Below, piece after piece: positions 7,439 through 39,883 of a DNA stretch of 43,064 nt (positions are counted from its first letter, which is position 1; every line of letters starts with the position of its first letter). Source of the DNA: Candidatus Limnocylindrales bacterium (GTDB lineage: Bacteria; Chloroflexota; Limnocylindria; Limnocylindrales; CSP1-4); assembly GCA_025450915.1 (NCBI GenBank), contig JANWLH010000055.1, positions 1 to 43,064 on the forward strand. Reading direction: 5' to 3'. Both the position numbers and the translations under genes were made by a program. The notes below the pieces were generated by a model. That model was not told the origin of the DNA and searched no databases. It saw only the letters and a list, made by a program, of their open reading frames with translations.

Positions 7439-8409
7439 TCCTCGTGCTCGTCGAGCAGGACGGCGGCCAGCCGAGCCGCTCGTCGCTCGAAGCCGTGACC
7501 GCTGCGCGCCGCCTGGCGGTTGCCGCCGGCGTGCCGCTCGAGGCCGTGCTGTTCGGGGCAGGCGCTTCGGGGGCGGCGGCTGCGCTTGGCGCGTACGGGG
7601 TCTCGTCCGCCCATGTCGTCGAGCACGCCCGCCTCGATGCCTATGCGCCGGCGGCGTGGGGCCGGAGCGTCGCCGAGCTCGTGAAGGCAGGGTCGCCGTC
7701 GATCGTCGTTGCCGTCGGCAGCGACCGCGGCCAGGAGGTCCTGGCGTACGCCGCGGCGATGCTCGATGCGCCGATGGCCGCCAACTGCGTCGAGGTCCGG
7801 CCCGGCGAGCTGTTCGAAGTGGTCCGCCAGCGCTGGGGCGGCAGCCTGCTCGAAGAGGCCCGGCTTGACGGCCCGGTTCGGCTGCTCACGATCGCCGAGC
7901 ACGCCACGCAGCTCGAAGAGGCGGCCGCCCCATCTGTCGTCGCGGTTGCTCCGTTCACGCCCACGCTCTCGGACGCCGATCTGCGCGTGCGCGTCGTGGC
8001 CCGCGTCGCGCCCGAGGCGGGCAAGGTCTCGCTGGCCGATGCCCGGGTCGTGGTGGGCGGCGGACGCGGCGTCGGCGGCTCGGAGGCCTTCGGCGAGCTC
8101 GAGGAGCTGGCGGCCCTGCTCCACGGGGCGGTCGGCGTGTCGCGCGTCGTGACCAGCGCCGGCTGGCGCCCGCACAGCCAGCAAGTCGGCCAGACCGGCA
8201 CGCGGATCGCGCCCGACATCTACATCGCCTGCGGGATCAGCGGCGCCATCCAGCACATCGTCGGCTGCAAGGCCGCCAAGGCAATCCTGGTGATCAACAC
8301 CGACCGCGAGGCGCCGATCATGTCGCGGGCCGCCTACGCGGTCATCGGCGACCTGCACACGGTCGTCCCGGCGATCAGCGCCGAGATCAGGCGCCGCCAG
8401 GCTTCCTAG
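7435..8409 (+). CDS. etfA: Electron transfer flavoprotein subunit alpha
   Basis: MILVLVEQDGGQPSRSSLEAVTAARRLA... with C-terminal FAD-binding signature RVVTSAGWRPHSQQVGQTGTRIAPDIYIACGISGAIQHIVGCKAAKAILVINTDREAPIM. Confidence 0.94.
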   Translation: MILVLVEQDGGQPSRSSLEAVTAARRLAVAAGVPLEAVLFGAGASGAAAALGAYGVSSAHVVEHARLDAYAPAAWGRSVAELVKAGSPSIVVAVGSDRGQEVLAYAAAMLDAPMAANCVEVRPGELFEVVRQRWGGSLLEEARLDGPVRLLTIAEHATQLEEAAAPSVVAVAPFTPTLSDADLRVRVVARVAPEAGKVSLADARVVVGGGRGVGGSEAFGELEELAALLHGAVGVSRVVTSAGWRPHSQQVGQTGTRIAPDIYIACGISGAIQHIVGCKAAKAILVINTDREAPIMSRAAYAVIGDLHTVVPAISAEIRRRQAS

Positions 8410-10322: not shown

Positions 10323-10367
10323 TGGAGCGGGAGACGAGGTTCGAACTCGCGACATTCAGCTTGGAAG
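10323..10367 (-). other. tRNA-Gly 3'-half fragment (outer attachment site copy)
   Basis: tggagcgggagacgaggttcgaactcgcgacattcagcttggaag is identical over 45 nt to 11326-11370 of the intact tRNA-Gly (CCA end through anticodon loop). Identity stops at the anticodon. Confidence 0.92.
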
Positions 10368-10523
10368 TAGGCACTTACGGTGACCCATTGGACAGTAAGG
10401 CTGACTGTCTCTCTGCTCTTGGCGGCCGTTTCAGTGGTGATCCTACGCTGACTGTTGTTGTCTCGGGCTTTCTATCGCTCCGAACCTCGCCTTCGAGCCG
10501 CAGACTTCGTGCAGACTGCTCAG

Positions 10524-11180
10524 ATGTTCGCGTGGATCCGACGATACCCGGGCCGAGGCGTTGCTCTGCTCGCGATCATTGCGATCGGTGCCCTCGGACT
10601 CGTTCGCGCATACCTTGAGTCCCCACCGACTTTCGTTGCTCTTGCCCTGATCACCGGGATTGCGGCGGTCGGGGTTGCACTCGAGCGGCCCAAGTGGCGC
10701 CGCAACTACCACGAGTTTGCCGAGCGGATGAAGGCCCGCGAGCCGGGCACTGTTTACCTGGAAGCGGCGATCTTGAGCGATGGCCTCCTACGTGAGGCGA
10801 GGGCCGATCAGGCCGCTGATCGACCGACCACGATCGACGCCGATCGGATGCCAGGGGTCTCCTCGGGCGGTGAGATGCTCATCGCGCTGGTGGCAGCGCC
10901 GTCGGGCATTCAGTTGTGGCGGTTGAGATCACTCCTCCGAGGTGAGCCGGTTCGGTTCGCGACGTTCTACTGGAAGGACATCGCCTCGATCGGCCTAGGC
11001 AAGACCCCATGGGGCTTGACCGATACGCTGCCACTCGTTACTGCTCGGCGCACGGGCAGTCCACTGACGCTGTGGTCCCTAAGCACACCGTTGGGACAGG
11101 GATGGTGGAAGTTCAAGACCAGCCCGGACGCCGCGACAATCGCCCGGCTCGAGGACCTCAGAAGCACGTCCGATTCATGA
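10524..11180 (+). CDS. Hypothetical membrane protein (two N-terminal TM segments)
   Basis: MFAWIRRYPGRGVALLAIIAIGALGLVRAYLESPPTFVALALITGIAAVGVALERPKW...WRLRSLLRGEPVRFATFYWKDIASIGLGKTPWGLTD... Only sizeable ORF in the ~1 kb segment between two att copies. Confidence 0.55.
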   Translation: MFAWIRRYPGRGVALLAIIAIGALGLVRAYLESPPTFVALALITGIAAVGVALERPKWRRNYHEFAERMKAREPGTVYLEAAILSDGLLREARADQAADRPTTIDADRMPGVSSGGEMLIALVAAPSGIQLWRLRSLLRGEPVRFATFYWKDIASIGLGKTPWGLTDTLPLVTARRTGSPLTLWSLSTPLGQGWWKFKTSPDAATIARLEDLRSTSDS

Positions 11181-11325
11181 TCAGGTGGCTGCAAAAGTGC
11201 CTAAACCGCGCGGCCAGATCCCCGACAAACGCGACACGCATTAGAACAGGCTGAGTGTCCGGAGGCGATTTCGGCACTCTGCGCAGCCGGGTCACCTGCG
11301 GGCTGACTGTCCAATTGAGCGTAAA

Positions 11326-11401
11326 TGGAGCGGGAGACGAGGTTCGAACTCGCGACATTCAGCTTGGAAGGCTGACGCTCTGCCAACTGAGCTACTCCCG
11401 C
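11326..11401 (-). tRNA. tRNA-Gly (anticodon TCC), CCA encoded
   Basis: Reverse strand GCGGGAG TA GCTC AGTTGGCA GAGC G TCAGC CTTCCAA GCTGA ATGTC GCGAG TTCGAAC CTCGT CTCCCGC T CCA folds as a cloverleaf. Confidence 0.95.
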
Positions 11402-11419: not shown

Positions 11420-11483
11420 ACAGCGGATAATCGTCGATTCTGGCCCTCACCAGTTGACCATACTGCTTGAACAGCGGATAATC
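11420..11483 (+). repeat. Pair of 13-bp direct repeats ACAGCGGATAATC (11420-11432, 11471-11483)
   Basis: Exact 13-bp direct repeat spaced 51 bp, between the tRNA/att site and the integrase. Candidate arm-type binding sites. Confidence 0.7.
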
Positions 11484-11576
11484 ACGCCAGATTCGTTCGG
11501 CTCTGAGCGTGAGACAGCGTCAAAGTATGCGCTGTCCGCTCCCCCGCTGAGTTCGGGCAGAGAGGCAGACTTTTCG

Positions 11577-12527
11577 ATGGCCAGAACGTCTCGCACGCCC
11601 CGTATCGTAGCCCAAGGAGGCCTTCCGGCAACGGGCCCCACGATCGACTCGGCGATCGATTCGTACCGGCTCAGCCTCCGAGCCGGCAACAAGAGCCCAG
11701 CGACGATCAAGACCTACCTCGCGGCGCTGGCCCGCTTCAGCCGGTTCCTGACCGAACAGGGCATGCCCCCGACCCTCCGGGCGATCCGGCGCGAGCACGT
11801 CGAGGCGTTCATCGTCGCGCTACAAGATGCGGGCCAACGCCCCGCAACCGTGTCGATCGCCTACCGGAGCCTCCAGCCGTTCTTCAAGTGGGCCCTGGGC
11901 GAGGACGAGATCGCGGGCTCCCCGATGGAGCGAATGACCCCGCCGATCGTGCCTGAGGAACCGCCAGCGATCCTGCGCGACGAGGAGCTCAAAGCAGTCC
12001 TCAACGCCTGCGCTGGCTCGGACTTCGATGCTCGCCGCGACACCGCCATCATCCGGCTCTTGCTCGACACCGGGATGCGCCGGGCCGAGCTGGCCGGGCT
12101 CAAGGTCGACGACATCGACATGGACCAGCAGGTCGGGATCGTCTTGGGCAAGGGCCGCCGACCGCGGGCCTGCCCATTCGGCAACAAGACCGCCCAGGCG
12201 ATCGACCGCTACCTGCGGCTGCGGTTGGCCCACCCGTTCGCCGACCGACCGGAGCTTTGGCTGGCCCGCAAGGGCGTCCTCACCGACAGCGGCGTGCTGC
12301 AGGTGCTGCGGCGTCGCGGGGCCACAGCCGGACTTCCCAAGCTCCACCCGCACCAGTTCCGCCACACATACGCCCACCTATGGCTCGCCGATGGCGGGAA
12401 CGAGGGAGACCTGATGCGCCTCGCCGGCTGGAAGAGCCGCCAGATGCTCAGCCGCTACGGCGCCTCAGCGGCGGACGAGCGAGCGCGTGATGCATACCGA
12501 CGCCGGAGCCCAGGAGACCGAATCTGA
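11577..12527 (+). CDS. Tyrosine recombinase / phage-type integrase
   Basis: N-terminal SAM-like domain ([33 protein letters not shown]) and catalytic motifs: TGMRRAEL (R), LGKGRRPR (K), [15 protein letters not shown] (HxxR), [17 protein letters not shown] (W/Y). Confidence 0.95.
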
Positions 12528-12595
12528 CGTGAGATTGAGTGCACTACTACCAGGTTGCCAAGTGTGTCGTGCAGACCTCTAGTATTATCGGAGGA

Positions 12596-13210
12596 ATGAA
12601 CGACACAACCGCGCCAAGGCGGCCCAACTCGGAGGCCCTCTTTGGGACGGCCAGCGAGCAGGCGGGCTACTTCACGGCCGCTCAGGCGAGCACGGCAGGC
12701 TACAGCTGGACGCTGCTCTCGTATCACGCGAGACACGGCCGCTTCACGCGCGTCGCCAGGGGGCTGTATCGCTTCCGAGACTATCCCTCCTCCCCGCGTG
12801 AGGAGCTCATCGCCGCTTGGCTACGGCTGGCACCTGACGCCGCGGTCTCGCACGAGTCGGCACTCGAGGCTCTTGGCCTCTCCGATGTCATCCCGGACTC
12901 GATCCATCTGACGGTCCCGCGCGCGCGCCGAAAGCTGAGTCGAACGCCCGGCGTATCGATCCACACCACCATCCGACCCCTGGAGCTCACCGACGTCCTC
13001 AAACGTGACGGGGTTCGACTCACTGCGCCAGCTCGGACGATCGTGGACGTCGCCGAGGCTGGCACAGCCCCCGAGCAGGTGGTGCTTGCCACGCGCCAGG
13101 CGGTGGAGCGCGGACTGACGACCCCATCCCGAGTTCGGGCTGCAGCACGGTTTCGAAGCCGTCGAGTCCGGGATCTGATCGAGACCGCACTGGCCGAGGC
13201 TGGGAGGTGA
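12596..13210 (+). CDS. AbiEi-family antitoxin (type IV toxin-antitoxin)
   Basis: FTAAQASTAGYSWTLLSYHARHGRFTRVARGLYRFRDYP winged helix; DAAVSHESALEALGLSDVIPDSIHLTVP...RDGVRLTAPARTIVDVAEAG. GTGA overlap with AbiEii. Confidence 0.9.
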   Translation: MNDTTAPRRPNSEALFGTASEQAGYFTAAQASTAGYSWTLLSYHARHGRFTRVARGLYRFRDYPSSPREELIAAWLRLAPDAAVSHESALEALGLSDVIPDSIHLTVPRARRKLSRTPGVSIHTTIRPLELTDVLKRDGVRLTAPARTIVDVAEAGTAPEQVVLATRQAVERGLTTPSRVRAAARFRSRRVRDLIETALAEAGR

Positions 13211-14121
13211 GGTACACCTCTGCGTCGGTCTTTCGCCAGGCACTCGAGACGCGGCTGCAGACCCTAAGCCGCGAAGACGGCGTCTCCATCGTCAGGCTCC
13301 GAAAGCAGGTCGCGTTCGATCGACTGCTGGCCAGGCTTCTCGTTGCCGCGCCGGGCCGGTGGGTGCTTAAGGGCGGACTCGCTCTCGAGTATCGGTTCGG
13401 TACCCGCGCCCGATCGACCAGAGACATGGATCTTGCGGGCTCCGCAGACGAGGACACAGCGACAGCCGACCTACTCGCCGCCCAAGATCTCGGCCTTGGC
13501 GACTACCTCGGATTCACGATCGAACGCACAGCCCGGCTCGATGACCTTGTCGAGGGATCGGCGGTCAGGTACCACGTTCGAGCGGACCTGGGCGGCCGTC
13601 GCTTCGAGGACTTCGTCGTCGACGTCGGCTTCGATCTGGCGCCCGGTTGGGACGCGGAGATGCTGAAGGGCACGGATCTCCTCGCGTTCGCCGGGATCGA
13701 CGCAGTAGAGGCGCCGTCGCTCGCGCTGGAGCTGCAGGTTGCCGAGAAGGTCCATGCCTACACCCGTGCCTACGGCCCAAAAGGCATCCGCAGTACGCGA
13801 GTCAAGGACATCGTGGATCTCGCTCTGATCGCGTCGACGGTCAGCCTGGACGCCGAGCGAATCCATCGCGCTCTGCGTGATACGTTCGGGCAGCGCGGCG
13901 ACCGCGATCTCCCCGTCTTGCTTGCTGCTCCGCCAAGTGACTGGGAGGTGCCGTTCCGACGCCTGGCTGCAGAGATCGGGATGAAGGTGGACCTCGGGCG
14001 GGGGCATGAGCTCGCGTCCCGGCTACTGGACCCGATACTCTCCGGCGAGATTGAGACTGGCACCTGGAGTGTTGCGACCGCGGGCTGGGTCACCGATCAT
14101 GCGGTGCGGGGACCACGATAG
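13207..14121 (+). CDS. AbiEii/AbiGii-family nucleotidyltransferase toxin
   Basis: WVLKGGLALEYRFGTRARSTRDMDLAGS (KGG...R.T.D.DL NTase motif); ALELQVAEKVHAYTRAYGPKGIRSTRVKDIVDLALIA. Confidence 0.92.
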   Translation: MRYTSASVFRQALETRLQTLSREDGVSIVRLRKQVAFDRLLARLLVAAPGRWVLKGGLALEYRFGTRARSTRDMDLAGSADEDTATADLLAAQDLGLGDYLGFTIERTARLDDLVEGSAVRYHVRADLGGRRFEDFVVDVGFDLAPGWDAEMLKGTDLLAFAGIDAVEAPSLALELQVAEKVHAYTRAYGPKGIRSTRVKDIVDLALIASTVSLDAERIHRALRDTFGQRGDRDLPVLLAAPPSDWEVPFRRLAAEIGMKVDLGRGHELASRLLDPILSGEIETGTWSVATAGWVTDHAVRGPR

Positions 14122-14625
14122 TCGCCCCGATTTCGTATGTCTCAGAGGCCGAACCGTGGTCGCGCGCATACCCCAGACCGCGCGAGCCGTCCTGGCCGCG
14201 CTACGACTTGGTCCAACGGCCCAGGAGCAGTCGATCGGGACGCGACCGCACCGGAGTCGACCGTAGACATCAGATCGCCGAAGGTCCGCACGATGTAGTC
14301 GGCGAGCAGGCAGAGGATGAGCTGCTGGTCACGAGCCGGCAGGGCGGTCCAGATGGCACCGGCCCGCGTGGAGCGTAGTGAGTCGGGTTTCGGGCCAGCC
14401 TGCGTCTGCGCACGATCGGGTGTCGTGCTCGTCGTCACCCTGCTGTCACCTATGGTGTTACGGAGCGCGTTACGGAGTGCGTTGCGTGGCGCGACACTGT
14501 CGTGACCCTCAACACTCACTCCCCGGCGGGCGTGGCCGTTCGCGCTCGTCGCGTGGTCGAATCGGTGGCCTTCCCGAGGCATGTGTTCGAGAATCGGGCG
14601 GTCCGGGCACAGGCTCAGTCGGCCT

Positions 14626-14883
14626 TCATCTATTCTCGCGACGCTTCCGAGCCGACAGGTATGCGAGTCGCGTGAAGTAGGCGCGGCGGGCAGCTCCGGC
14701 ACGACGGTGGCGCTCGGCTTCGGGCAGGCGGCCCTCAGGGTCGACCTGATCGAGGAAGCGCTGGTTGAACGCGCGCCGGGCGGCCTTCGTGGTCTCGCGC
14801 GGGTCGTAGCGGGCGTGGAGCATGTAGGCGGCCATCCGGGCGCGCATGACGCGCTCCGAGGGCGTGAGTGATTCGCGTCTCAC
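14626..14883 (-). CDS. Small basic hypothetical protein (~85 aa), coupled to the Replic_Relax-like gene
   Basis: GTG at 14883 overlaps the TGA of the upstream gene. VRRESLTPSERVMRARMAAYMLHARYDPRETTKAARRAFNQRFLDQVDPEGRLPEAERHRRAGAARRAYFTRLAYLSARKRRENR. Confidence 0.6.
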   Translation of the reverse strand: MRRESLTPSERVMRARMAAYMLHARYDPRETTKAARRAFNQRFLDQVDPEGRLPEAERHRRAGAARRAYFTRLAYLSARKRRENR

Positions 14884-15776
14884 CGCAACGCCTCGGTGAG
14901 ATCTTCGTTGCCGCCGAGGCCGAGGACCTGGAGCCAAGCGTGGGTCCCGACTGGGGTCGGGCAGCGCCGGGACGTCGGATCGGCGAGGAGGGCCCCGAGG
15001 GTCGTCGACGCCAAATTCGCGTTGAGGGCGACGACGCGCGCGTCGAGGCCGCGGGTCCGCAACTCCGGCAGGTCGAGCGCCCAAGCTTGACCGGCGAGTC
15101 CCGGGTAGCCGCCCCTGTGACTTGCGTGCCTCGCGAGGGAGGCCGCCCGCTCGGCCGACGGGACGACGAACAAGAGGTGCCAGCCGGTCTTGGAGCGGAG
15201 CGCGGTCTCGTACCGGCCGAGCTTGTCCCGGATGACCGGACAGCGCTCAGTGTTTTGGTCGATCTCGAGGCACAGGACCGCCGAGCCCGTCGCCGCCTGG
15301 AGGACGACGACCGCATCGGGGTAGACCTTGGGCAGGAGATCGTGGGCCATCATCTCGGTCAGCCATGCCTGCACGAGCGGCTCGGCCGGCCCGCCCCCAG
15401 AGGCTGCCACGAGCGCACAGACCGTCTCGACCCCGTTGAGGCTGTGGCGGAGCTGGGTGCCGGCGCGCGAGCGGGTGAGTGGGTCATAGCCCAGACGTCG
15501 ACGTCCGCGGGGCGAGATGCGGAAGGCGTGGGGAGCACCACCGCGAGAGGACGGCGGCAGGATCGCTCGTTCGAGGTAGCCCGCATGATAGAGGCGGCTG
15601 AGCCGTTCTTGGGCGGTTTGACGACGAGCGTAGGCGAGGGTCATGAGTTGGGCGGTGGTGGCGACGTCGGCGCGATAGAGGATCCGTAGCGCAGCGCGAT
15701 CACGGTAGGGTAGGAAGCCTGGATCGACGATGACCCGACGAGCTGGTGCGGGTGCGGAGCTGAACGCGCCGATCAT
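14880..15776 (-). CDS. Replication-relaxation (Replic_Relax-like) family protein
   Basis: LPYRDRAALRILYRADVATTAQLMTLAYARRQTAQERLSRLYHAGYLERAILPP...RRRLGYDP...RHSLNGVETVCALVAA...HDLLPKVYPDAVVVLQAATGSAVLCLEIDQNTERCPVIRDKLGRYE matches the family pattern from integrated plasmids/ICEs. Confidence 0.75.
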   Translation of the reverse strand: MIGAFSSAPAPARRVIVDPGFLPYRDRAALRILYRADVATTAQLMTLAYARRQTAQERLSRLYHAGYLERAILPPSSRGGAPHAFRISPRGRRRLGYDPLTRSRAGTQLRHSLNGVETVCALVAASGGGPAEPLVQAWLTEMMAHDLLPKVYPDAVVVLQAATGSAVLCLEIDQNTERCPVIRDKLGRYETALRSKTGWHLLFVVPSAERAASLARHASHRGGYPGLAGQAWALDLPELRTRGLDARVVALNANLASTTLGALLADPTSRRCPTPVGTHAWLQVLGLGGNEDLTEALR

Positions 15777-16573
15777 GGGCCTGTAGGGTCTCGGCGCGGA
15801 TCGTGCATTCCCCCGCACGGAACCGGGGGCAGCAAACCGGGTCCCGAAACCCCGATCGCGGGCCCCATTCCCGCCGACGGGCGGTGGCTGGATGAGGAGA
15901 TGTCGATCTGATACGGATGGAGAGAGTGCTGAACCATCTGGAGGGCGACCTCAAGCTAGGACCTTGCGTACCGGTTTTTCGACGACTGGCCACGTTCAAC
16001 CCGTTGGGGCGCTCGATCTCGGGAGCCGTCACGCCTGGGACGACCAGCCTTGAGCTCGACGCTCCAGCGGAGCAGTCGCGACGCGGACGCTTCGGAGCTC
16101 GACCCGAGAACCGTCAGCGACCGCCGGAGCGTGACTCCTGGACGGTCGACGCGGCAGACCGCAGCGCATGCTGCTCAGCCGACCGAGACGGCACGGGCGA
16201 CCGACCGAGGCGTCAGCCGCCGAGGCTCCATGCTAGAGCGGAGGATTGGCGAGCAGCAAGGCCATCCGTGTACGAGATTGTGTACGGCGGAATCCCTCCT
16301 GGAGGGGAGCTTTCGTCAAATTGCGTGGAAATCCCTTCCGTACATCACCTCTCGTTAGGCAGCAGTCACGCGCCGTCAGGGACGGCCAGCTTCTGGTCGT
16401 CGTCCTCGAACCTGACTTCAGTGAACGGTCGGAGGTTGCCACCTGGCGCACCGATTAAGTCGAGGATTGCCCGTCCCCAGCCTCCCGGGCGCTTCTCATG
16501 TTCGTCTCAGGTTCGTCCGCGACCATGGACCCGTCCGGCCGACGGCCTCCACAGTTTGTCGGCTGGACGTGTC

Positions 16574-20500: not shown

Positions 20501-20713
20501 ATGTCCCGCCGTCCTGATCCCCTGAAGCTGTACGCGGCCCATCGCGCCGGCCTCTTCCAGCGGCTCGTCCGTGAGGCGAGGATCGGCGAGGCGAGCGCGG
20601 AAGCGTGGATCGTCGCCTGGGAGTCAGAGGCCCGCCAGCGTGGCCTGGACAGGCGCACAGGCGATTGGTGGGCTCCTGCGTGGGATTGGATCGCGGCGCA
20701 GCCGCGGGACTAG
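20501..20713 (+). CDS. Small W-rich hypothetical protein (70 aa), paralog of 19339-19554
   Basis: MSRRPDPLKLYAAHRAGLFQRLVREARIGEASAEAWIVAWESEARQRGLDRRTGDWWAPAWDWIAAQPRD; TACCCT 6 nt upstream of ATG. Confidence 0.7.
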   Translation: MSRRPDPLKLYAAHRAGLFQRLVREARIGEASAEAWIVAWESEARQRGLDRRTGDWWAPAWDWIAAQPRD

Positions 20714-21232
20714 CCTTGCGACGAGGTCGCCTTCTTGGAGCGGGCCGCGCTGGCAGGCCGCTTCTTGGGCGGACTGCCCGGAGCGGCTCCCCACGGGACA
20801 TGCGACCCGGCGAGTTCGGCCAGAGCCTTCGCCCTGTCGGACATTGCTACGTTGAAGTTCATGCCGGGCTCCATTTCCTCGTCGTCCAGCATGACTACGA
20901 TGCGATGGACCGACTTGAGTCACGGCGGCACCGATATCAAGGGCGATCGGCATGACCGTGGTCGGGGTCGATCCGAAGTCGGGCTTCCGCGTTGAATTGA
21001 ACGCGACGCCGGTGCTCCCTAGATCATCGCCGTCCGGTCCTACGACGTTGAGCCTCAGAACTTGGAGCTTGTCCAGTTCGGCCTCATCGAGCTCGATGAG
21101 CAGCGCTGCCGAGAGTCGTGGGACGGCTGGAAAGGTTGAGGCGAGCACCACGTTGATACCGCCGTCGACAACGTTCAACAGACCGCCCGAAGCGGTCGCG
21201 AAGTCGGCGAGGAATGCCCCGATGACCCTCAC
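20710..21232 (-). pseudogene. DUF6941-like protein with apparent frameshift near 20905-20915
   Basis: MRVIGAFLADFATASGGLLNVVDGGINVVLASTFPAVPRLSAALLIELDEAELDKLQVLRLNVVGPDGDDLGSTGVAFN...MPIALDIGAAVTQVG, then in the neighbouring frame VHRIVVMLDDEEMEPGMNFNVAMSDRAKALAELAGSHVPWGAAPGSPPKKRPASAARSKKATSSQG*. Confidence 0.55.
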
Positions 21233-21579
21233 GCTGGGCCCGTGCGGACCGAGATGTGGGCCATGGTGGTGGTGGTCGCCAGTGTTCCGGCGTTGGCCGT
21301 CGCCCAGATCGTTTCGCGCTGCGGCAGCAGTCTCGCGACGATCGACTTGACAGCGAGCCCTAGAGAGAGCGGTTCCGGCTCGAATTGCTGGACAGTGAGG
21401 GCTGTCGCCGTCTCGGGCAGACGTGCCAGCACCTCAAGGCCCTCCATGACCTGGACGAATGCGCCTCCTGGCTCTCCCTTTAACAGAACAAGGTCGAGCG
21501 CATCGAGGGAATTGAACTCGTCCCGCACAAATGCAAGGGCCTCGTCCCCGGCTCCAGTCGCGCTTCCTGCCACGGCCAA
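21229..21579 (-). CDS. Hypothetical protein, overlaps the DUF6941-like gene
   Basis: GDEALAFVRDEFNSLDALDLVLLKGEPGGAFVQVMEGLEVLARLPETATALTVQQFEPEPLSLGLAVKSIVARLLPQRETIWATANAG...; 4-bp overlap with the following gene. Confidence 0.5.
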   Translation of the reverse strand: MAVAGSATGAGDEALAFVRDEFNSLDALDLVLLKGEPGGAFVQVMEGLEVLARLPETATALTVQQFEPEPLSLGLAVKSIVARLLPQRETIWATANAGTLATTTTMAHISVRTGPA

Positions 21580-21680
21580 TCGAGACCAGTGACGACCAAC
21601 CTAGCGACTTCCACGTGGCCGTCCAATAGCAGCCATACCGCGTCGACTGGCGTTCCGGCCTCCTCACTTCGCCCAGGTGA

Positions 21681-21730
21681 TGCAAGTCGCGTGCCCCACC
21701 ACCCCGCGACACTCGTTTCACCGGGTCGCC
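21681..21730 (+). repeat. Intergenic repeat family copy R1
   Basis: tgcaagtcgcgtgccccaccaccccgcgacactcgtttcaccgggtcgcc; shares CGCGACACTCGTTTCAC with R2. Confidence 0.65.
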
Positions 21731-21750
21731 TCTGAAGCCCGGGCTCGTTG

Positions 21751-22164
21751 CTAGCGATGACGGACGCGCCTATCTCGAGCCAGACCCGCCACCCAAGAAA
21801 CGGCGAGTACCACGATGCCGGCGAGCAGCACCTCGCTGGTATCCGCCGGACCGACCGCCCCGAGGAAGGCATAGAGCAACCCTGCCGCGATCACGAGCGC
21901 ATGTCCGCCCGTTCGATACCTTGTCCAGATCGTCTCCGTCGGAACGTCCCACGACTTCCACGTCCCGCGCGAAATCCAGCGCTGATAGACAAGCATCTGG
22001 CCCCCGCAGAAGAACACGATCATTGCAAGGCCGATGGGCGTCCGGCTCCCAGGAACACGATTGAGGAGCAGCGTCGCAGCGCCGGTAACGAACAGCACCT
22101 CGCCGAGGGCCGTCAGCCACGTCAACGGTGATCGCAGCGGGTTTGGGCGACTCGCGGCCTGCAT
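21751..22164 (-). CDS. Small membrane protein
   Basis: MQAASRPNPLRSPLTWLTALGEVLFVTGAATLLLNRVPGSRTPIGLAMIVFFCGGQMLVYQRWISRGTWKSWDVPTETIWTRYRTGGHALVIAAGLLYAFLGAVGPADTSEVLLAGIVVLAVSWVAGLARD; 4 TM segments. Confidence 0.65.
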   Translation of the reverse strand: MQAASRPNPLRSPLTWLTALGEVLFVTGAATLLLNRVPGSRTPIGLAMIVFFCGGQMLVYQRWISRGTWKSWDVPTETIWTRYRTGGHALVIAAGLLYAFLGAVGPADTSEVLLAGIVVLAVSWVAGLARDRRVRHR

Positions 22165-22185
22165 CGTCACCGCAGAGTACCCCTC

Positions 22186-22240
22186 GCCTGACCCGTGTCC
22201 CACCCCGCGACACTCGTTTCACTCGTTCGACGTGGTGACC
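22186..22240 (+). repeat. Intergenic repeat family copy R2
   Basis: gcctgacccgtgtcccaccccgcgacactcgtttcactcgttcgacgtggtgacc. Confidence 0.75.
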
Positions 22241-22256
22241 GGGCAGGGCCGAGTCC

Positions 22257-22742
22257 CTACCCGGAAATCCTCGCCGGCCCGATGACCGAAGCCGCCGAGT
22301 ACCAGACCAGCGACACAGCGATCTGCGCCGCACATGTGACCCAGAAGCCCCGTGGCGCTCGCCAGACCCAGATCGCCCAGAGGCCGGCCTCGATGAGCAG
22401 GCCCACAACAGCCCCGAGGATGCGTGGTCCATCGCCGACGAACCCTGACGCCTGGGCGGCCGGGAACGCGAGCCCGGTTAGGCTTTCGAACGCGAGAATG
22501 ATCAAGATCGCCCCGGACAGAAACATCCCGACGACTGTGCCTTTCAACGATTGAAGCTGGCGCCGCATCAGCTCCAGTCGCGGCTCCGGGCGAGCCGTCG
22601 CCTCAATCCGAAGAAGGTCGAGGGTCTGCCCCGGCGACATCGGGATGAAGGCCGCAAGGAGGTCGCTTAGGCTCGTTGGACCCTCGATGCAGCGATCTGC
22701 TCGAGAAATTGCGACCCGATACCTGGCGCTCCAGGCCAGCAT
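22257..22742 (-). CDS. Small membrane protein
   Basis: RQLQSLKGTVVGMFLSGAILIILAFESLTGLAFPAAQASGFVGDGPRILGAVVGLLIEAGLWAIWVWRAPRGFWVTCAAQIAVSLVWYSAASVIG. Confidence 0.65.
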   Translation of the reverse strand: MLAWSARYRVAISRADRCIEGPTSLSDLLAAFIPMSPGQTLDLLRIEATARPEPRLELMRRQLQSLKGTVVGMFLSGAILIILAFESLTGLAFPAAQASGFVGDGPRILGAVVGLLIEAGLWAIWVWRAPRGFWVTCAAQIAVSLVWYSAASVIGPARISG

Positions 22743-22886
22743 CAGGACAATAAGGGACCCCCAGCAAGGGGTAGCCCAAAGTCAACGGATCCATCACTAG
22801 GCGCCTCGCATCCCCGGCATTCTGCGCCCCGCCGACACCGCCTAACGAGATAGCACAGGTCGACCCAAGCTTTACTCGTCACCAGG

Positions 22887-22940
22887 TGCCTGACTCGCGT
22901 CACCGGGCGACAGTCGTTTCACAGGTTCGACGTGGTGGCC
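22887..22940 (+). repeat. Intergenic repeat family copy R3
   Basis: tgcctgactcgcgtcaccgggcgacagtcgtttcacaggttcgacgtggtggcc. Confidence 0.75.
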
Positions 22941-22962
22941 CCTACCCAGGGACGGCGGCAAT

Positions 22963-23385
22963 CTATCGGTGCGGCGGGTCAAACCCGCGGGACTGGATCC
23001 ACTCCTCAAACGTTCGCTCCTGCTCGGCGACCGTAGTGACCTGCGCTCTTTCCGCGCGGTCGAAGGTCTCAACACGTTCGTCGTCCGTCGGCCCCCGGCC
23101 CGGAGTAAGCACGTAGGCGATCAGGCCCGCCCCCGTTGACCGTGACATACCGGATGGCCAAACGTCACGGCGAGCGCCTTGGCAGAGGACAAACGCACCG
23201 TCCTGCTCGAGGACCCGTCGGATCGCCAGGAGGCATTCGAAGTAGTCGCGATCGTCTGCCGACAGCGTGCGTCCGTCTTCGAGTCGAAGGTCTAAGTGGC
23301 AGCGCCCGCCCTCCGCCCTAAGCGTCACTGTGGACGAGAGGGTCTCAGCAGCCCAAGCGACTTCCAGTTGCTTCGGTTCACTCAC
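22963..23385 (-). CDS. Hypothetical protein (140 aa)
   Basis: MSEPKQLEVAWAAETLSSTVTLRAEGGRCHLDLRLEDGRTLSADDRDYFECLLAIRRVLEQDGAFVLCQGARRDVWPSGMSRSTGAGLIAYVLTPGRGPTDDERVETFD... Confidence 0.7.
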   Translation of the reverse strand: MSEPKQLEVAWAAETLSSTVTLRAEGGRCHLDLRLEDGRTLSADDRDYFECLLAIRRVLEQDGAFVLCQGARRDVWPSGMSRSTGAGLIAYVLTPGRGPTDDERVETFDRAERAQVTTVAEQERTFEEWIQSRGFDPPHR

Positions 23386-23430
23386 CGCAGCAGCATAGGT
23401 GCTCCCCCTTGAACGCCTCGCGCCCCCACC

Positions 23431-23475
23431 CCTTGCTTGACTCGTGTCACCGGGTGACGGTCACGGTCGGCTAGG
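23431..23475 (+). repeat. Intergenic repeat family copy R4
   Basis: ccttgcttgactcgtgtcaccgggtgacggtcacggtcggctagg; contains palindrome GTCACC-G-GGTGAC. Confidence 0.65.
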
Positions 23476-23529
23476 TATTGCGTCCCGCTCATCATTTGAG
23501 TACGGCAGGGCGGGTGATACCGTCCGTGC

Positions 23530-23865
23530 GTGACTCCCGTCCCTAATGAGCCTCCGACGCTGCTTCCCGGTCGATCTGCTCAGTCATGGATGTGGCGCGG
23601 CGGAATTTCCACTCTCGTGGCCGTGCTCTCGCTTCTCACGTTTCCGGTGGTGTCGGGCTTGCCGGCCGCCATCCAAGTCATCGATGTGGTGATCTTCGGC
23701 ATCGGCTGCATTGTCGCCTTTGCCTCATTCATCCTTGCGACCGGTGCAACGACCCGCGAGGCGGCTGCCGGCTACACCACCCAGAACGGGAGGCAGTATC
23801 GGCATCTGTGGCGGCTCGACCCGCGGACCGGGGCCGCTGTGCGCCGACCTGAGGACGCAGGATGA
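23530..23865 (+). CDS. Small membrane protein (111 aa)
   Basis: MTPVPNEPPTLLPGRSAQSWMWRGGISTLVAVLSLLTFPVVSGLPAAIQVIDVVIFGIGCIVAFASFILATGATTREAAAGYTTQNGRQYRHLWRLDPRTGAAVRRPEDAG. Confidence 0.65.
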   Translation: MTPVPNEPPTLLPGRSAQSWMWRGGISTLVAVLSLLTFPVVSGLPAAIQVIDVVIFGIGCIVAFASFILATGATTREAAAGYTTQNGRQYRHLWRLDPRTGAAVRRPEDAG

Positions 23866-23921
23866 CCGCGCGACCTTGAGCTGACCGTTCTCACCCGAGC
23901 CGCCTGGCGTCCCTGGTCACC

Positions 23922-23960
23922 CCTTGCCTGACTCGCGTCGCCGGGTGACACTCCTGGCGT
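23922..23960 (+). repeat. Intergenic repeat family copy R5
   Basis: ccttgcctgactcgcgtcgccgggtgacactcctggcgt. Confidence 0.65.
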
Positions 23961-24103: not shown

Positions 24104-24475
24104 CTAGCGCCGACGCAGACCGACCAGGACCGCCCCCACGACGACGAACGGCAGTAGGCTGACTCCGGCCAGGATGTAGGTGTCCCGCTGCGCGGTCGGG
24201 ATGTCGCGAAGGACCCGGGCGCGAACATCAGCGCGAAGCATCGCCCGAAACCCGACGTCGGGTTCGCCGGCCCGGACCGCGAACCAGACGACCGGGACGG
24301 TGTTCGCCGCGATCCCGGTCGCCGCGATGGCGTAAAGCGGCGCCCCGTCGGTCCCGAACAGCACGGCCAGTCCCAGGCAAAGGACCCCGCCGACGCCGAA
24401 CTCCAGAGCCGAGAAACGGGCGCCGTTCAATCGATTGTGGTTGCGGATGATCTGGATCACAGCCGCATAATGCAC
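24104..24475 (-). CDS. Small membrane protein
   Basis: V/MHYAAVIQIIRNHNRLNGARFSALEFGVGGVLCLGLAVLFGTDGAPLYAIAATGIAANTVPVVWFAVRAGEPDVGFRAMLRADVRARVLRDIPTAQRDTYILAGVSLLPFVVVGAVLVGLRRR. Confidence 0.65.
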   Translation of the reverse strand: MHYAAVIQIIRNHNRLNGARFSALEFGVGGVLCLGLAVLFGTDGAPLYAIAATGIAANTVPVVWFAVRAGEPDVGFRAMLRADVRARVLRDIPTAQRDTYILAGVSLLPFVVVGAVLVGLRRR

Positions 24476-38358: not shown

Positions 38359-39054
38359 TCACGCCTTACGTTTTGCGCCAACAGGCCGCCCGAGCTCCCG
38401 GTCGATCGCATTCGCCGCCCGCGTCTCTCCAGCTCGTCGGAGGGCATCAATGGCTTTGTCGAGGATCCCGGTAACGTGGGCGAGCTCCTCCCGGAGCGCC
38501 TTTGCCTCGTCCCAGCGCTCCAGCTCGGCAGCGCCGCACCAGGCTCGCAGGATGTCGCGGCAGGGCTTGCAATGCTCGGCGTCGTACTCCTGGCAGCGTT
38601 CGGGAGGCACGAGCTGGGGCGGCTCGCCACGCCACTCGACGTACCGCCCATGGAGGGCCTCGTCGCGGGCCTTGGCTTCCTCCTTCTCGACGTAGCGAAG
38701 GATCGGATCGGGATCCCGACTTGCGGCTCGAGCCGCGATCGATCGAGCGATCGCCCATGGAGCCACCAGCCAGCCGTCTTCGATGAACGAGAGTTCGCTG
38801 GCAAACGAGTCAGTACTCGCGTCGAGGAACATGGCGAGCGCTTCTGGATCCGGGATCGTCACCGTCGTGCATCGTCCCTCCCAGCCCATCACTGCCAGAC
38901 GCGGGTCAATGAGCTTGTCGAAGACCGTCGAGGCAGCCGAACTCCCGGGTGAATCGCCAGTCTCGGAAGCATCAAGGAGCGCGTCCCATCGCGCCTCGCG
39001 AGCCCGGAAGGTCTCGAGTCCTGACCAGAGGCACTTGAGCCGACCGGTCGGCAC
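38359..39054 (-). CDS. Hypothetical protein (start uncertain)
   Basis: VPTGRLKCLWSGLETFRAREARWDALLDASETGD...CQEYDAEHCKPCRDILRAWCGAAELERWDEAKALREELAHVTGILDKAIDALRRAGETRAANAI. The ORF-track start at 39165 overlaps a recombinase remnant antisense, so the start is probably internal. Confidence 0.55.
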   Translation of the reverse strand: MPTGRLKCLWSGLETFRAREARWDALLDASETGDSPGSSAASTVFDKLIDPRLAVMGWEGRCTTVTIPDPEALAMFLDASTDSFASELSFIEDGWLVAPWAIARSIAARAASRDPDPILRYVEKEEAKARDEALHGRYVEWRGEPPQLVPPERCQEYDAEHCKPCRDILRAWCGAAELERWDEAKALREELAHVTGILDKAIDALRRAGETRAANAIDRELGRPVGAKRKA

Positions 39055-39094
39055 CCACTCAGCCCGACCTTCGAACTCGTCGGCGACCCAGCTC

Positions 39095-39883
39095 GTCACC
39101 CCGGCCCTCTGGTCGGCCGCCCAGGAGACGCTCGCCCGCAATCGCCGCGTCGTTCGCAACAGCACTCGGTCGTATCTCCTGCGGGGCGTGATCCATTGCG
39201 CCGAGTGCGGCCTGACCTACATCGGCTCGCAGGCCCGGAAAGGCCGCGGCTGGTACCGCTGCGGTGGCCGGAACCGCGACCGAGGACCGCTCCAGGGCCG
39301 CTGCACCGGGCCGATGGTCCAGATGGACGCCATCGATGATGTCATCTGGGGCGACATCGAGCGCTGGCTGCGCAACCCGGGCGATGTCCTCGACGAGCTG
39401 GCCCAGGAGCGCGACTCCGGTGCCGCAGTCGCCGAGGCAGAGGCGATCACGATCCGGCGGGCCATCGCCGCGCTCGATGACCAGAAGGCCACCGCCATCA
39501 GCCTCGTCGTCCGGGCTCTGGCGCCCGAGACCGACCTCCAGCCGGAACTTGCCCGGATCGCCGCCGAGCGGTCGCGCCTCGAGGCCCGCCTGACCGCCGT
39601 GGACGGCCCAGAAGAAGACCATCTCCCCGACACGGCCACTGACCTGCTGTCAGAGGTTCGGGCCCGTCTGGACGCCGGGTTGCCGATCGAGGCGCGGCAG
39701 GAGATCGTGCGGCTGCTGGTCGGCCGGATCGTGATCCACGGCGAGACCGCTGCCGATGGCAAGAAGTCGGTCCGGGCCGTCGTCGAGTACCGCTTCCCCG
39801 GTGCACTCAATGTCCACACGGTCATTGGTTCATCGCCGCGACAACAATATTTGGGGTATCGATCCAAACAGTCCCCACCGTGA
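39095..39883 (+). pseudogene. 5'-truncated large serine recombinase (zinc-ribbon and coiled-coil C-terminal region)
   Basis: LVTPALWSAAQETLARNRRVVRNSTRSYLLRGVIHCAECGLTYIGSQARKGRGWYRCGGRNRDRGPLQGRCTGPMVQMDAIDDVIWGDIERWLRNP... Recombinase and Zn_ribbon_recom-like. No resolvase catalytic domain upstream. Confidence 0.82.

Follow-up and report, generated by a model that had tools for sequence, protein, structure and literature searches.

We asked why copies of one short repeat lie in the gaps of a row of small, unrelated genes in a soil Chloroflexota bacterium. The window, by which we mean the whole 43,064-nucleotide stretch of DNA that was analyzed, is an entire contig (G000:C55) of an assembly of 2.48 Mb that is about 70% complete. 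A preliminary description had proposed that the genes form a cassette array that grew by repeat-mediated recombination. We found that the repeats are confined to this array, that a sister species has a second array with other genes, and that one of the genes is homologous to an immunity protein. Our preferred reading, tentative and in our judgment somewhat short of an even chance, is that the locus is a small cassette-like array of accessory genes, partly orphan immunity genes, with the repeat as the seam and with a function like that of the rAID arrays discussed below.

The five repeats (R1-R5, 21675-23960) were all found close to where they had first been described. Each is intergenic and on the plus strand, with a single copy per gap, a length of ~40-60 bp and a spacing of 490-700 bp (Table). 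The single consensus first proposed for them held in part. The shared sequence is well above chance: the longest identical runs were 23 consecutive bases for R1 and R2, 15 for R3 and R5, and 10 for R4 and R5, whereas for random pairs of 100-mers from the window the median is 7, and 0.3% of pairs reach at least 12. The core pattern matched the window three times and none of 100 shuffled versions. The copies are nonetheless not uniform, as R1 lacks the left half, R2 has two extra nucleotides and R4 and R5 diverge directly after the centre. They are better described as two overlapping subtypes, one with the left part and centre (R2-R5; ACCCCTTGCCTGACTCGYGTCACCGGGYGAC) and one with the right part (R1-R3; CACTCGTTTCAC); GTTCGACGTGG is in the right part of R2 and R3.

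Table. Coordinates of the repeats, the small ORFs and the candidate recombinase in the window.
Feature	Coordinates	Strand	Description
R1	21675-21735	+	Right half conserved (23 identical bases in common with R2); left half diverged
R2	22178-22240	+	Both halves; 2-nt insertion in centre; 36.3 bits (copy included in model)
R3	22879-22940	+	Most complete copy; 43.4 bits (copy included in model)
R4	23426-23466	+	Left and centre; 21 identical bases in common with a G082 copy
R5	23917-23958	+	Left and centre; blastn with R5 found the G082 locus
ORF1	21751-22164	-	Small membrane protein; weak YhhN match, no family above the cut-off
ORF2	22257-22742	-	Small membrane protein; no family found
ORF3	22963-23385	-	Soluble; homologous to immunity protein TriX (PDB 8s2m)
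ORF4	23530-23865	+	Small membrane protein; an RHS toxin tip directly precedes one homologue
ORF5	24104-24475	-	Small membrane protein; homologous proteins in G083 and G030
Additional pair of small ORFs to the left of R1	20624-21232 (DUF6941), 21229-21579	-	No repeat between the two
XerC/D-like tyrosine recombinase	11454-12527	+	Candidate enzyme only; R1 is ~9 kb away, with other genes between

The repeat was found in two places, each time in a cluster. Pattern and profile searches of the G000 assembly, which is about 70% complete, gave no confident copy outside the cluster, so that all confident copies lie within 2.3 kb. Among the 177 genomes of the class, the only other carrier was the congener G082 ('Chloroflexi bacterium palsa_1033'), and an exact-pattern scan of the genome contig collection returned a single match, PNAZ01000128.1 ('Chloroflexi bacterium isolate palsa_1033'). 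In G082, two copies lie 494 bp from each other (G082:C155, ~17295 and ~17789) on a contig of 22,987 bp, which brings the total in the searched data to seven, in two incomplete draft assemblies. Profile matches in other genomes of the family were weak (about 21 bits or less), and the seven that were inspected, three of them checked for repeats, were not array-like. Plasmid and phage records gave no match or matches at the level of chance. Based on the searches of G000 and the class, we conclude that the repeat is not scattered through the genome and not common in the family, and that it forms two independent clusters with different genes.

The G082 locus supports the idea of a seam. Its repeats flank small plus-strand ORFs unrelated to those of the G000 array. 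The two loci are not syntenic; the best G082 counterpart of the ABC transporter that neighbors the G000 array is on another contig, with other genes beside it and no match to the array. Two copies around different small genes in a non-syntenic place favor a cassette-like seam over a REP element spread across the genome. We rejected the genome-wide REP element because searches by pattern and by profile revealed a single cluster in each of the two incomplete genomes and no copies dispersed beyond it; the first condition that the preliminary description named as refuting its proposal thus did not hold. Additionally, R4 is closer to one G082 copy (21 consecutive identical bases) than to its array neighbors R3 and R5. 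The G082 contig also carries a second near-palindromic repeat, CCACACGATTGAGTCATCGTGTCGG, at 8251-8275, 11525-11549 and 16162-16186.

A repeat that is itself mobile might also produce such clusters. A REP-like or MITE-like repeat, or the end of an insertion element, could have inserted or multiplied repeatedly within a single permissive island with no role in gene gain. The copies are degenerate with a variable right end, and the region is plastic, with a tRNA-linked element, a recombinase and toxin-antitoxin genes, as such hitchhiking would predict. However, the five copies lie within 2.3 kb with none elsewhere in the assembly, the G082 copies are likewise clustered, and no transposase-linked parent copy was found by the exact-pattern scan of genome contigs or in plasmid and phage records. 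We consider hitchhiking doubtful.

The centre of the repeat is a dyad, GTGTC-N7-GACAC, a general form for sites of tyrosine recombinases or dimeric regulators. The near-palindrome reported earlier, GTCACC-G-GGTGAC, is exact in two copies, R4 and one from G082, and inexact in the others; one G082 copy has an exact 17-bp palindrome in its dyad centre. The dyad and this palindrome would suit an operator at which a shared regulator binds and controls the local accessory genes. So would the confinement of the repeats to gene gaps and the conservation of bases with no compensatory changes, as in a bound double-stranded site. On the other hand, the repeats stand at variable distances and orientations to start codons, and R5 is flanked on both sides by 3' ends, those of ORF4 and ORF5. 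We found neither sigma-70-like promoters nor terminator-like sites at the repeats, and no regulator gene visibly accompanies both loci. We therefore regard regulation as an unlikely function of the repeat, one that still merits consideration.

The locus resembles an integron cassette array, and we find it very improbable that it is one. Sites 490-700 bp apart, one in each gap between small ORFs that are unrelated, are what would be seen if the locus were an array lacking its integrase (a CALIN) with the repeats as attC sites, and the G082 copies have modest predicted hairpins (z of -1.65 and -2.23). The integrase IntI is not required for a CALIN, and attC sites consist of inverted RYYYAAC and GTTRRRY cores and fold as single strands. 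This core pair was absent from R1-R5 on either strand, and the fold energies of the repeats were within the range of neighboring DNA. The core of the repeat is conserved, not just its ends, and the repeats do not keep one polarity with respect to the genes. None of 107 family genomes, including the about 70% complete G000, had an integron integrase (TIGR02249) over the cut-off; the recombinase at 11454-12527 scored 55.6 bits against a cut-off of 265. The check for RNA structure covariation proposed in the preliminary description revealed none: no pair of positions had changed on both sides, in a comparison of five sequences with low power, and the repeats thus give no support for a selected hairpin. 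An Rfam search returned nothing credible. On these tested features (integrase, attC cores, folding and covariation) we rejected a standard integron or CALIN.

The five ORFs of the array appear to be genuine, unrelated genes. They have 111-161 codons and are separated by gaps of 92-238 bp, with four on the minus strand and one on the plus strand. Codon use is coding-like and unlike that of competing frames, with scores mostly below those of the long genes of the window. Comparison of the five revealed no significant similarity that would indicate common ancestry, and ORF1, ORF2, ORF4 and ORF5 have 2-3 TM-like segments each; the original view of unrelated ORFs, four of them membrane proteins, was thus borne out.

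Evidence for immunity was found mainly for ORF3. It matched the 'Immunity Protein TriX' (8s2m) with E=8e-13, including a conserved LCxGA..V.PS.MSR stretch. TreX is an ADP-ribosyl transferase of Xenorhabdus bovienii (PMC12605009), and from the names TriX is probably its partner. A single-sequence structure model of ORF3 had a mean pLDDT of 50.5 and was left out of our reasoning. Homologues of ORF3 are patchy, occurring in 3 of 399 genomes of the phylum (G000 counted) and on some plasmids. One is found close to small genes carrying DUF2019 and DUF4259 and, by a weak match, DUF4279, a family tied to immunity (PMC13304343).

For the other ORFs, an immunity role would be an extrapolation. One ORF4 homologue is directly behind an RHS core-plus-tip fragment, and the other homologues inspected had no convincing RHS motifs nearby, which weakens the claim of immunity for ORF4; we rejected ORF4 as a consistent RHS immunity gene. 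The RHS locus concerned (G094:C279, 1-3709) consists of tandem core-tip-immunity-like units, with the ORF4 homologue behind one tip. ORF5 homologues in G083 and G030 are about 59% identical over 109 aa and in an unrelated genomic place. Separately, G083:C87 and G030:C342, from genomes placed in different genera, have 8.8 kb in common at 99.8% DNA identity, which suggests recent transfer or a mis-binned contig. Homologues of ORF3, ORF4 and ORF5 are all patchy and in unrelated contexts. No support for immunity was found for ORF1, ORF2 and ORF5.

The recombinase at 11454-12527 is the only tyrosine recombinase found near the array, and none was present among the G082 ORFs scanned, which covered parts of the repeat locus. 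It adjoins a tRNA-Gly gene and is followed by AbiEi/AbiEii and a Replic_Relax gene, and this row next to a tRNA (11454-15818) suggests a mobile element or its remnant. The 3' part of the tRNA-Gly gene (11326-11401, minus strand) has an exact 45-bp duplicate at 10323-10367. The roughly 1 kb between the duplicates (10323-11370) contains a single ORF (10455-11180) and lacks an integrase, as though a very small element were seated at the end of the tRNA. Elsewhere in the window, an ORF at 38783-39883 has a recombinase zinc-ribbon domain, with no catalytic serine recombinase domain detected.

We compared the array with two known kinds of immunity locus. Recombinase-associated acquired interbacterial defence (rAID) systems of Bacteroidales contain orphan immunity genes, a conserved intergenic motif and a tyrosine recombinase directly upstream of the array (PMC12247911). 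The G000 locus is likewise an array of short genes with a conserved intergenic motif and at least one orphan immunity homologue (ORF3), and its genes are slightly lower in GC than the surroundings, as in rAID (64.5-65% for four of the five versus 67.5%). It differs in that the host belongs to another phylum, ORF4 is oppositely oriented, firm immunity homology is limited to ORF3, and the recombinase is not adjacent to the array. Because the motif is present, gene orientation and immunity content agree in part, and the adjacent recombinase is absent, we liken the array to rAID and do not class it as such; by this analogy it may function in a similar way. Heterogeneous polyimmunity loci of polymorphic toxin systems have short gaps, one orientation and diverse recognized immunity families (PMC3482391). 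The G000 array is similar in its cluster of unrelated small proteins with no toxin families found between them, but it has gaps of 92-238 bp, mixed orientation and four of five ORFs with no evidence of immunity.

We weighed these results for and against a cassette-like array. Clustering, one repeat per gap and recurrence with other genes are what one would see if each unit carried the repeat or was joined to the next at it. We counted in favor the single orientation of the repeats, their absence elsewhere in the assembly, the likeness of R4 to the G082 copy, the TriX match and its DUF-rich neighborhood in a relative, the ORF4 homologue behind an RHS tip, and the patchy homologues of ORF3-ORF5. 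We counted against it the variation in copy length and centre (R1, R2), which is unusual for compatible recombination sites, and the orientation of the repeat relative to genes, which are mostly on the minus strand in G000 and on the plus strand in G082. The distance of the recombinase, the failure to find one among the scanned G082 ORFs, the lack of immunity evidence for ORF1, ORF2 and ORF5, and the position of most inspected ORF4 homologues away from RHS genes also weighed against it. The proposal of growth by repeat-mediated recombination thus survives in part: clustered repeats around different ORFs make cassette-like growth plausible, while the integron route was rejected on the features tested, and we observed neither excision nor circles nor a reshuffled allele.

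We infer that horizontally spread accessory genes would pile up side by side in a plastic region of the Chloroflexota chromosome, with a short lineage-specific repeat marking every junction between them. The repeat would be the seam at which genes enter and leave, used either by a site-specific recombinase that acts on it or by recombination from copy to copy. The host would thereby keep a changing stock of accessory genes, those for toxin immunity among them, and the array would resemble rAID in function. It is rather improbable, in our estimation, that the locus represents a Chloroflexota gene-capture system distinct from integrons and rAID-like in strategy although outside the Bacteroidales. 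In such a system a recombinase, of the tyrosine or another type, would swap cassettes of one gene each, orphan immunity genes as well as other accessory ones, at a dyad repeat of roughly 40-60 bp. If the reading as a cassette array with immunity genes is true, short accessory genes with an immunity homologue among them and a repeat at all junctions would be present in a second lineage unrelated to the first, and the recombination seam could be defined and tested there independently.
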